From NCBI GenBank assembly GCA_017519685.1, contig JAFWRV010000360.1, positions 1-14,407 of the forward strand: a stretch of DNA of 14,407 nt, given 5' to 3'. Below are positions 10,736 through 13,042 of this stretch, piece after piece (position 1 is the first letter of the stretch; every line of letters starts with the position of its first letter). A program made the translations under genes and the position numbers. Below the pieces are notes generated by a model that did no database searches, was not told the DNA's origin, and saw only the letters and a program-made list of their open reading frames with translations. The stretch is from Clostridia bacterium (GTDB lineage: Bacteria > Bacillota > Clostridia > Oscillospirales > Acutalibacteraceae).

Positions 10736-10782
10736 AAAAAAGGTGCAGTTTGCCAATCAGACGGGACGATTCATTGAACCGC
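10736..10782 (-). terminator. T-box regulated terminator of alaS
   Basis: A run of six T (10741-10736) follows AACTGCACC (10750-10742). In the form that excludes the antiterminator, GCGGTT (10782-10777) pairs with AACTGC (10750-10745) and CAAT (10776-10773) with ATTG (10757-10754), leaving GCA bulged. An alternative perfect 8-bp pairing joins GGTGCAGT (10812-10805) to ACTGCACC (10749-10742). Either places a stem at the T-run. Confidence 0.75.
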
Positions 10783-10957
10783 GGTACCACCCGAATTGCA
10801 CATCACTGCACCACTCTGTTGATTTTTAACGCAATCGGCGCCGCGCCTCGTCAGCGCGGAACTCAGAAGCGGCACTCCGTTTTCCGTTTCACAGTCCTCC
10901 TCTCAGCAGGCGGGGACCTCTCTGTGTGATGAAAACGGATTATTCTTCTTCAAAGTT
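10736..10957 (-). promoter_or_regulatory. Alanine T-box riboswitch in the alaS leader
   Basis: The RNA senses uncharged tRNA-Ala and lets transcription continue into alaS. Stem I spans about 10957-10860. AACT-TT-GAAG (10957-10948) pairs with CTTC-TG-AGTT (10869-10860), and a 9-bp upper helix pairs 10939-10931 with 10884-10876. The specifier loop between them carries GCC (10873-10871), an alanine codon. A GC-rich hairpin (10859-10841, CCGCGC/GCGCGG) follows, with no recognisable Stem II. The antiterminator reads CGGG (10793-10790), bulge TGGTACC, GCGGTTC, loop AAT, GAATCGT, CCCG (to 10762). The bulge TGGT matches the ACCA end of tRNA-Ala. The core CGGGTGGTACCGCGG fits the T-box consensus in all but its first base. 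Confidence 0.95.
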
Positions 10958-10962
10958 TTTTG

Positions 10963-12963
10963 TTATTCTGCCTCTTTTACAAGGGTCATTGAAATATAGG
11001 CGTATGTGTTGTTATATTCGATACGGAGCCATTCTTTACCCGTTGAGGAAAGTTTGGTGCCGCAGCCCTTGACTCTTTCTCCGGAAGGAAGCTCGCCGAC
11101 CTTCTCGGCGTTCGCGTCCGCGTCGGCTCTGACGTTGATACCGCCGCTGCCCGTAACGATATAATACTTGTCTTCTCCTGCGGGATCTGTTGTAATATCA
11201 TCCGGTGAAGCATCAATAATGAGATTGACTCCGGGGAAGGTTGTGATGGCGCTGCCTGTCAGTATAACGCCCCAGGTGTTGTCTTTCTTCGCGATGAACA
11301 CGCCGTTGAGACCCGGCATAATGACGCTGTATTCAAACGGAACGATAACCTCATCCTCAAGATTGATTATTCCCATACTGCCGTTCTTCTTGACGGCAAT
11401 AAGTCCGCCCGTAACAGGTCTGCAGTAATCGCAGTTGTAAGCGTTGAGCGTGTCGGAACCTGAGCCGGTATCAAAGTTGACGGCATCGTATTTGTAAGGA
11501 ATAACCTTCTTGCCGTCCATATCGACATATCCCCATTTGCCGTTCTTTCTCGCGGCGGCGTAACCTTCAAAGAATCTGTCACGCTCATCATACTTTACGC
11601 CTTCGGGGAACTCGTCATCCTGGAACGCGTGGCTCTGATGCTCCTGACCTGTTATCTCGGCTTTTCCGCCGGAATAGGTTACATAGTGTTTAACACCGTC
11701 TATATCGACAACAACATGATATTTATTGCTGTTTGTGTAATCTCTTCCCGAGCCGCAGGCAAGGAAAGGATTGTCATAATGCGGCTGGATAAGAATATTT
11801 CCCTGGTAGTCAAGCAGACCGTATTTATTTGTGGTTGCTGACTTGAAACAGCAGAAATACTCGTTGAGGTAATTGATTTCGGAGCAATCGGCAAAACCGG
11901 TGTTTTTCCACTGATATTCGACATCGGAAGTATTCGCCGTGCTGACCTGTGCATCGGGATTGTCTTTCTTTTTGCCCGCCGCCTTGGCTATGCCTGTGAT
12001 AATAAGAATAATCGCAATCAGCGCAACAAGGATAATTCCCGCTTTTTTCAAATCAATCTTTTTGAAATCGAAGTTTTTGAAGAAATCAAGAACACCTGCG
12101 ACACTGAAGCCTTTGCCGGATGAAGCCGGTTTTTCTACCGGAGTATCGACAAACCTGTCAAAATCTATTTCCTCATCCGACGGAGTTTTGTCCGCGGCGG
12201 AATTTGTGTTTACGGGAACGGACGGCTCGGAGCTGATGTTTTTGAAAAACTCTCCCTTCGAGGCGGGAACCGTTACCGGAGCTCTGCTGTTTTCTACCTC
12301 TTTGAAGGTGTTGTACTTATCGATAACATAAGAGAAGATTTCTCTTACCGCAGACGGATCGATTGCGGTGGTCTCCATCTCTCTCTTGAAAATCCTGTTA
12401 AGAACGGGATAAGGACTCTCGGGATTTTCCGAAGGTTCTCCGCTGCCGCATTTTGAGAAAATGATTTCCTTTGCCTTGGCAAGAACGGCATTGGCTGAAC
12501 TCTCAGAAATATTGAGATATCTTGAAAGAGGCCCGATAGGCATTCCGCTGTAATAGTGAAGAATAACCGTGCTGCGAAGCTCGGGGCTCAGCTCGGAAAC
12601 GGCGTCGAGAGCGGCGGCTGTCTTTCTGACATCGGTGTAAACATCCTCCGACAGGAATTCAAGCGTGCTTTCGGGAACATCCGCAACCGCGTCGCCGAAT
12701 GTGAACTTGCGTCCTTCCTTATATACTGCGGCAATATTCTGCCTCATAAATATTTCAAAAGCGTCGGGCTTCTTCAGGCGAGCGATTGTGCAGAACACTC
12801 TTGCATAAGCGTTTTTGGTAATGTCAACTGCTTCGTCCGCATCGCCGCAGAGTTTCAAGGCAAGATAATAGGATGACTTCAGCGTTTTGGCATAAAGCTT
12901 ACCCATGGCATCCGTATCGCCCTGAGAGGCGGCATTGACATAGCGAATCATATCTTCGCTCAC
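10963..12963 (-). CDS. ECF-sigma-like/transmembrane/WG-repeat/SH3b fusion protein
   Basis: I do not know a characterised homologue. Residues 1-172 resemble an ECF sigma factor: a region-2-like helical part (about 8-85) and a region-4-like helix-turn-helix (about 121-170, ELSPELRSTVILHYYSG then LSRYLNISESSANAVLAKAK). Residues 173-305 are a Ser/Pro/acidic linker. A single transmembrane helix lies at about 309-327, flanked by lysines. Outside follow WG-type repeats (379-395, 464-492, 518-545, 554-568; motifs NGKWGYVDMDGKKVIP and NTWGVI) and an SH3b-like domain at 599-662 (GGINVRADADANAEKVGEL). It probably links an envelope signal to a cytoplasmic DNA-binding or sigma-like head. Region 2 lacks the usual acidic-Gln core-binding pattern (VDITKNAY), so real sigma activity is uncertain. 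The start is GTG, supported by GGAGTGA. It has its own promoter and its transcript runs into the alaS T-box. Confidence 0.88.
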   Translation of the reverse strand: MSEDMIRYVNAASQGDTDAMGKLYAKTLKSSYYLALKLCGDADEAVDITKNAYARVFCTIARLKKPDAFEIFMRQNIAAVYKEGRKFTFGDAVADVPESTLEFLSEDVYTDVRKTAAALDAVSELSPELRSTVILHYYSGMPIGPLSRYLNISESSANAVLAKAKEIIFSKCGSGEPSENPESPYPVLNRIFKREMETTAIDPSAVREIFSYVIDKYNTFKEVENSRAPVTVPASKGEFFKNISSEPSVPVNTNSAADKTPSDEEIDFDRFVDTPVEKPASSGKGFSVAGVLDFFKNFDFKKIDLKKAGIILVALIAIILIITGIAKAAGKKKDNPDAQVSTANTSDVEYQWKNTGFADCSEINYLNEYFCCFKSATTNKYGLLDYQGNILIQPHYDNPFLACGSGRDYTNSNKYHVVVDIDGVKHYVTYSGGKAEITGQEHQSHAFQDDEFPEGVKYDERDRFFEGYAAARKNGKWGYVDMDGKKVIPYKYDAVNFDTGSGSDTLNAYNCDYCRPVTGGLIAVKKNGSMGIINLEDEVIVPFEYSVIMPGLNGVFIAKKDNTWGVILTGSAITTFPGVNLIIDASPDDITTDPAGEDKYYIVTGSGGINVRADADANAEKVGELPSGERVKGCGTKLSSTGKEWLRIEYNNTYAYISMTLVKEAE

Positions 12964-13013: not shown

Positions 13014-13042
13014 ATTTTAAACTATATTTTGGGTTTTGTCAA
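13014..13042 (-). promoter_or_regulatory. Strong promoter of the sigma-like/WG-repeat gene
   Basis: The minus strand has TTGACA (13037-13042), 17 bases, then TAAAAT (13014-13019). The expected start near 13007 leaves an AT-rich leader of about 44 bases. It is a housekeeping-type promoter, so a self-dedicated ECF promoter is not evident here. Confidence 0.82.

Follow-up and report, generated by a model that had tools for sequence, protein, structure and literature searches.

A one-chain, membrane-anchored sigma-like protein with WG repeats and an SH3b domain in Clostridia, and its possible role as a sigma mimic

Introduction

Most descriptions of extracytoplasmic function (ECF) sigma factors present a device of two proteins, the sigma factor and a membrane anti-sigma factor. 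The window examined here, the whole 14,407-nucleotide stretch of contig JAFWRV010000360.1 from a Clostridia bacterium of the family Acutalibacteraceae (assembly GCA_017519685.1), carries a gene in which an ECF-sigma-derived head is followed, N to C terminal in one polypeptide, by a helical cap, an acidic disordered linker, one transmembrane (TM) helix, WG repeats and an SH3b domain. What does a sigma-like head do in such a chain? An earlier note on this DNA had read the product, here called the sigma-WG protein, as a membrane-tethered sigma-like regulator, perhaps released by proteolysis, or, as a fallback, a DNA-binding protein. We tentatively favor a different answer, to which we give slightly less than an even chance: that the head, tethered to the membrane, mimics a sigma factor and binds another protein, much as PhyR does, and is neither an active sigma factor nor a DNA binder.

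Results

Origin of the head and integrity of the fusion

The homology of the head to ECF sigma factors was examined with profile searches. Full-length ECF models of NCBIfam cover residues 5-166, the best being TIGR02954 (E 2e-15 on residues 1-172), and none of the models listed for the head reached its curated cut-off. The Pfam model Sigma70_r4_2 has a cut-off of 25.7 bits and scored 24.5 on the whole protein but 27.5 on residues 1-172; it was recognised in 59 of 60 members of the branch of relatives that share this architecture (the sigma-WG branch). Sigma70_r2 was below recognition in the sigma-WG protein (12.9 bits versus a cut-off of 24), and at E 1e-3 it was found in 0/60 branch members, compared with 52/60 in a wider set of fused proteins that itself includes 4 branch members. 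Region 2 nevertheless matched stand-alone ECFs in a single profile-profile comparison with hhalign (probability 98.8, E 1e-16), whereas swapped-domain controls gave probabilities of 0.9 and 0.2; for sigma4 the probability was 99.1. Among solved structures, SigW of Bacillus subtilis (5wuq, E 5e-36) is the nearest relative to the fused-head profile, and also to the AlphaFold model. An ECF-sigma-like head at residues 1-172 with a degenerate region 2, as the earlier note had described, is therefore borne out. The profile searches that it had proposed recovered WG_beta_rep, SH3_3 and, within residues 1-172, region 4; Sigma70_r2 stayed below its cut-off, and region 2 was detected by hhalign.

The open reading frame of 666 residues had been placed correctly at 10963..12963, and the gene lies on the minus strand. 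The database relatives are 649-753 aa long, all with a WG domain and most with region 4 and SH3 (120 listed of 212), and 98 of those listed align with the query over their length. The same fusion recurs in independent assemblies, and the gene was matched in 42/45 genomes of the genus (E 1e-20), including 15/15 of those with a completeness of 90% or more and no more than 5% contamination. A frameshift, chimera or assembly join, the kind of error that the note had feared, is ruled out by the full-length relatives, the independent assemblies, a conserved alaS neighbor and the genus-wide matches.

Replacement of canonical residues under strong selection

We scored nine positions with residues canonical for ECFs (47 D/E, 50 Q, 51 D/E, 72 W, 79 N, 157 V/I, 158 K/R, 159 S and 160 R/K), which we take to have roles in core RNA polymerase and promoter contact. 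They were picked after the residue table had been viewed, and most of the same residues are present in SigW. For residue, charge and flank counts, the sigma-WG branch comprised 121 proteins. All of them kept only 1-4 of the nine residues, versus 5-9 in stand-alone ECFs (n = 38) and a mean of 7.86 in other fused heads (range 3-9, with 67/79 at 7-9). The prevailing substitutions were K50 (111/121), K51 (105/121), N158 (118/121) and L160 (102/121); K/R was gone at both 158 and 160 in every protein, and D/E51 was retained in 2. The net charge of the DNA-facing helix of region 2 (residues 69-88) was +0.9 in the branch; other fused heads had +3.5 and stand-alone ECFs +4.4. For the helix-turn-helix (HTH), the three values were +1.3, +2.1 and +3.1, respectively.

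The ratio of nonsynonymous to synonymous substitution rates (dN/dS), pooled from 6 non-independent pairs, was 0.030 for sigma2, 0.047 for sigma4 and 0.046 for the cap (residues 183-217); the WG region gave 0.059, SH3 0.168 and the linker (residues 233-300) 0.203. The head is under strong purifying selection (0.03-0.05), and the low ratio rules out a decaying pseudo-domain.

Membrane topology and ectodomain

The best hydropathy window of the protein spans residues 308-326, in agreement with the single TM helix that had been proposed at 309-327. All 121 relatives have a TM helix (hydropathy at least 2.75), and its N-side flank is the more positive one in 111 and the less positive one in 1. WG and SH3 domains also occur in exported-type proteins without a sigma head. 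One of these, from another genus of the family (L010), is an apparent lipoprotein. Another, encoded in the same genome as the sigma-WG protein (L002, contig C474; 402 aa), has an N-terminal TM helix followed by WG and SH3b and is 35% identical to the studied ectodomain over residues 457-661, with similar matches in other genomes of the genus. The positive bias and these headless relatives suggest an N-in/C-out topology, with the sigma head inside and WG/SH3b outside. The union of an exported-type sensor and an ECF-derived head in one chain is borne out. The predicted WG repeats and C-terminal SH3b domain were confirmed by Pfam (WG_beta_rep, 70.8 bits in 5 stretches; SH3_3, 32.4 bits), the SH3b being similar to wall-binding domains such as that of lysostaphin.

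Several cysteines and histidines of the ectodomain are nearly invariant among the 121 proteins (C403, 120; H416, 120; H442, 121; H445, 120; C514, 121; C360, 113). They may form a metal or disulfide site, which could name the signal.

Anti-sigma context and promoter

An anti-sigma-type neighbor, defined as an adjacent same-strand open reading frame with a single TM helix, followed 30/37 stand-alone ECFs versus 2/58 fused genes. Among the remaining 7 stand-alone ECFs, 4 had neighbors with an early and a second TM helix, 1 had a neighbor with the TM helix at residue 310, and for 2 no neighbor was found. In the genome carrying the sigma-WG gene, 10 of 11 inspected ECF loci had such a neighbor, the exception being on C253; one of the 10 (L077) has a partial head only. 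No anti-sigma-type gene adjoins the sigma-WG gene, which is next to alaS. In this it resembles 56/58 fused genes; the earlier note had contrasted its single chain with ECFs held by a separate membrane anti-sigma factor.

Upstream of 29/31 sigma-WG branch genes, a TTGACA is followed after 17 bp by a -10 element (at least 4/6 matches), compared with 0.63 expected from shuffles; a few of the 31 upstream regions are near-duplicate loci. Positive autoregulation is described as common in ECFs in the passages cited (PMC5826349), whereas the promoter of the sigma-WG gene is of the housekeeping type, so that the gene is probably constitutive.

Functional interpretation

A protein-binding adaptor is the simplest explanation because a conserved sigma fold without the contact residues lies behind an exported wall-type sensor. 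The head would keep the sigma2-sigma4 fold but would not function as a sigma factor. The protein, probably constitutive and single-pass with its N terminus inside and C terminus outside, would serve in envelope signaling. Outside, the WG-repeat and SH3b domains would read the cell wall or envelope. Inside, the head would bind another protein; the simplest candidate is the cytoplasmic part of a membrane anti-sigma factor of the same cell, whose genome encodes about ten possible partners of this kind. A signal from outside could then alter the amount of free, genuine ECF sigma; both the signal and any role of proteolysis are putative. More doubtful is the fuller proposal of a genus-core, membrane-anchored pseudo-sigma that is off RNA polymerase and DNA and controls a real ECF pathway on a cell-wall cue, for instance by capturing an anti-sigma factor or setting it free, as a membrane-bound counterpart of PhyR that evolved independently in Clostridia. 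What may be new is the function of the sigma-WG branch; the one-chain membrane ECF layout itself is already known.

A number of observations weigh against a partner-binding mimic. The anti-sigma partner is a candidate. W72 is retained in 108/121 branch proteins, an acidic residue (D/E) at 47 in 118/121 and Q50 in 8/121, and Sigma70_r4_2 is still recognised in nearly all members. The charge of the whole sigma2 domain in the branch (+3.9) is near that of stand-alone ECFs (+3.4; other fused heads, +0.7), and a placement of the branch with stand-alone ECFs survives as an alternative tree (p-AU 0.247). The closed state of the head is an AlphaFold prediction with a predicted template modeling score (pTM) of 0.47. 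Not all anti-sigma-bound ECFs are similar to the model: SigK with its anti-sigma factor fits at 8.1 Å, sigmaE-RseA at 12.5 Å and AlgU-MucA at 13.8 Å. The fit is 4.7 Å for the ECF SigG1, in whose entry no anti-sigma factor is named. Foldseek TMt values were 0.67-0.68 for SigW, 0.56 for RpoE-NepR, 0.42-0.46 for SigK, AlgU and sigmaE, and 0.34-0.39 for RNA polymerase-bound forms. Since the structural alignments of the head model span residues 2-175 only, they give no support for the cap occupying the anti-sigma position.

The head could instead be an active sigma factor with altered promoter specificity, held at the membrane, perhaps closed by the cap, and freed by regulated intramembrane proteolysis upon an envelope signal, like IutY or as proposed for ECF52. 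This would fit the homology over the full ECF length, a head that is strongly conserved and has a low dN/dS, the canonical residues of most other fused heads and the existence of other single-chain membrane ECFs. M50 site-2 proteases are also encoded in the genome; they occur in 14/14 control genomes as well, and their presence therefore discriminates nothing. However, residues 50 and 51 are mostly K-K in the branch, with Q and D/E retained at these positions in only 8/121 and 2/121, the basic residues at 158 and 160 are lost throughout, Sigma70_r2 is undetected in 60/60 members, and the promoter is of the housekeeping type. We regard an active sigma as unlikely. The interpretation in the earlier note stands as far as it joins head and sensor in one chain; a sigma simply held at the membrane until its release is unsupported. 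The replacements extend to the helix that recognises the -35 element and to the helix of region 2 that faces the DNA, so that the DNA-binding fallback loses ground as well.

ToxR and CadC offer a layout parallel for a membrane-tethered one-component DNA-binding regulator, in which the sigma4 HTH would have acquired a new specificity and RNA polymerase would not be used as a sigma would use it. The HTH is still recognised (59/60), and the replacements in its recognition helix are conserved (N158). However, that helix has no K/R at 158 and 160 in any of the 121 proteins, charge has been lost in helix 69-88, and the strong conservation of sigma2 (dN/dS 0.030) would be left without a reason. These changes weaken the DNA-binding fallback, which we find improbable. 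A wall-binding or structural envelope protein, with the former sigma head as an anchor or scaffold that carries no signal, is likewise improbable: it would suit the lysostaphin-like SH3b domain and the headless WG-SH3 proteins of this and other genomes of the genus, but selection constrains the head no less than the WG ectodomain (dN/dS 0.03-0.05 versus 0.059), and the relatives include proteins with canonical heads.

A family of one-chain sigma proteins

One-chain proteins with a sigma head, a TM helix and an ectodomain are scattered through the class, with the ectodomains swapped (BspA-type leucine-rich repeats, WG/SH3b and others). Similar fusions in other genomes rule out a lone oddity. 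In 200 genomes of the family, close relatives of the head were found only in the genus, and similar heads in long frames occurred in many others. With a profile of 21 fused heads (A2), 100 family genomes yielded 19 heads that scored above 160 bits; they came from 13/100 genomes, every one in a frame of 489-1303 aa, and the next best match had 111.6 bits. This search is partly circular, several of the heads found having built the profile. Among 293 genomes of the class, with at most 11 candidates scored per genome, 16 of the 18 best matches (at least 140.8 bits) were in frames of 396 aa or longer, from 13 genomes, that of the sigma-WG protein among them. At the level of the phylum (299 genomes), matches listed from outside the class were stand-alone, apart from one of 541 aa (genome G549). 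When proteins of 313-996 aa were searched with a single canonical head, 556 relatives were obtained; names among the best 120 include Blautia, Ruminococcus, Eubacterium and Oscillospiraceae. Many of the relatives are one-chain membrane sigma proteins, and we found no description of them.

In a set of 60 long fused proteins (A3; Pfam counts from 25 of 30 families), Sigma70_r4_2 was recognised in 60/60 and Sigma70_r2 in 52/60, with LRR_5 in 14, WG in 5, SH3_3 in 4, DUF3108-like domains and a zinc ribbon in 3 each, DUF5050 in 2, and CAP, DUF3298 and lipocalin in 1 each. A TM helix follows the head in 53/61 fused proteins, with the N side more positive in 42/53 and less positive in 5. The sigma-WG-type head occurs with WG in 40/42 relatives; the remaining two are short proteins of 395 aa (marked partial) and 409 aa.

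A quick tree of 117 heads placed the sigma-WG branch within the main fused clade, as a strongly supported clade with a long stem (1.04). Twelve other fused heads fell weakly on the stand-alone side, so a single origin of all fusions is unsupported. In a more careful tree of 51 heads, which left out part of the fused heads, the sigma-WG clade had support of 100/100, and fused and sigma-WG heads lay on one side of a branch supported at 91/81. A few other fused heads score only 3-4 of the nine canonical residues (L019/L024, L033, L051 and L086/L150/L162), and such losses may therefore have occurred more than once.

In this Clostridia set, both ends of the device are in one chain and the sensor is freely swapped, as in one-component receptors. 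If the canonical fused members act as sigma factors, they would be self-contained surface-to-promoter switches whose ectodomain points to the signal. If the sigma-WG branch works without RNA polymerase, it would show a sigma fold turning into a signaling adaptor. Canonical relatives and the changed branch are both at hand for direct comparison.

Comparison with known systems

The single-chain membrane ECFs described in the passages cited include ECF48, ECF52, ECF53 and IutY (PMC8999054, PMC5826349). ECF52 (SCO4117 of Streptomyces coelicolor) has its ECF domain, TM helix and extracytoplasmic carbohydrate-binding module in one chain, with proteolytic release proposed; it has a zinc-finger domain and, in the passages cited, is reported only from Actinobacteria (PMC5826349). 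The sigma-WG protein resembles it in the TM helix after the sigma domain and the probably extracytoplasmic C terminus, but has a two-helix cap, WG/SH3b outside and a degenerate sigma head; no zinc-finger family was among its Pfam matches at E up to 1. Nor was a FecR-type anti-sigma domain, the type to which the fused anti-sigma domain of IutY reportedly belongs. In IutY (ECF243, Pseudomonas putida), sigma is fused to a membrane anti-sigma factor in one chain (PMC8999054, section 3.5.3); this anti-sigma serves iron cell-surface signaling, and truncated IutY is active (PMC8999054). The present family differs from known single-chain ECFs in that its named relatives are Clostridia and its ectodomains are swapped.

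PhyR, like the sigma-WG head, is sigma-like and reportedly lacks canonical sigma residues; it is said not to be membrane-tethered. It carries a response-regulator domain, whereas no receiver domain was among the Pfam matches of the sigma-WG protein. For the binding of an anti-sigma factor by a sigma-like domain, PhyR, an anti-sigma antagonist of Alphaproteobacteria, is the precedent, as the title of 4qic also indicates. In clostridial SigI/RsgI, according to the passages cited, a membrane sensor with proteolysis controls sigma (PMC12203970). There too a membrane sensor is linked to a sigma-type protein, but in two proteins, whereas the sigma-WG protein is one chain from one open reading frame with an ECF-type head. 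SigW differs in its separate anti-sigma factor RsiW, its canonical residues and its lack of a TM helix.

Cap, linker and features of the locus

The AlphaFold model, built on 99 relatives (mean predicted local distance difference test [pLDDT], 84.6), has one confident unit, which spans residues 1 to about 228 and takes in two helices beyond sigma4; the WG and SH3b regions are beta-rich and confident. In a canonical fused relative (P0122), the connector (pLDDT about 42-54) and the post-sigma4 helix (65-70) are far less certain. In the cap region of the branch, P186 is conserved at 100%, V187 at 99% and F210 at 98%. Residues 173-304 have a net charge of -7 in the sigma-WG protein, with a mean of -23 over the 121 relatives and negative values in 117. 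The long disordered acidic linker of the earlier note is indeed acidic, but disorder is predicted only at about 229-289, and the two cap helices had been missed. Coordinates are given in Table 1.

Table 1. Positions of the sigma-WG gene, its encoded domains and flanking elements in the window
Feature	Coordinates	Strand	Basis or details
Whole gene	complement(10963..12963)	minus	666 aa; GTG start 12963-12961; stop 10965-10963
Promoter, housekeeping type, TTGACA-17-TAAAAT	13014..13042	minus	-35 starts 13042; -10 ends 13014
Sigma region 2-like domain, residues 1-90	12694..12963	minus	hhalign 98.8; Pfam Sigma70_r2 12.9 bits; VIA-align to SigW
Sigma2-sigma4 connector, residues 91-111	12631..12693	minus	AlphaFold pLDDT 81-97 (blocks of ten)
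Sigma region 4-like HTH domain, residues 112-172, non-canonical recognition helix	12448..12630	minus	Sigma70_r4_2; residue counts
Conserved two-helix cap after sigma4, residues 183-227 (helices 187-198, 203-227)	12283..12417	minus	pLDDT about 93-97; conservation; dN/dS 0.046
Acidic disordered linker, residues 229-289	12097..12279	minus	pLDDT mostly <50; net charge; dN/dS 0.203 (233-300)
Single TM helix, residues 305-328	11980..12051	minus	AlphaFold helix; hydropathy
Extracytoplasmic (predicted) WG-repeat beta domain, residues 350-575	11239..11916	minus	
SH3b domain, residues 599-664	10972..11169	minus	
T-box leader of alaS	10759-10962	minus	RF00230, 102.3 bits; starts directly after sigma-WG stop codon

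The alaS gene follows the sigma-WG gene in the window and in 4/4 relatives examined (L005, L006, L121 and L122). Co-regulation of the two genes was considered; because the gap between them in the window is a T-box leader, alaS has its own control. By their coordinates, the gaps in L005 and L006 are apparently too short for such a leader.

Other fused proteins showed further arrangements. An N-terminal zinc ribbon precedes the sigma domain in L108 (by Pfam), L113 (by its cysteine pattern) and Blautia-type relatives of about 806 aa (by precomputed Pfam). L118 has a canonical-type sigma head, a TM helix and an apparent CAP-like ectodomain, and its genome, G015, has four fused sigma proteins. In genome G290, three consecutive open reading frames of 540, 1055 and 548 aa (L157:2033-8774) each carry a sigma-like head, with no TM helix above the threshold.
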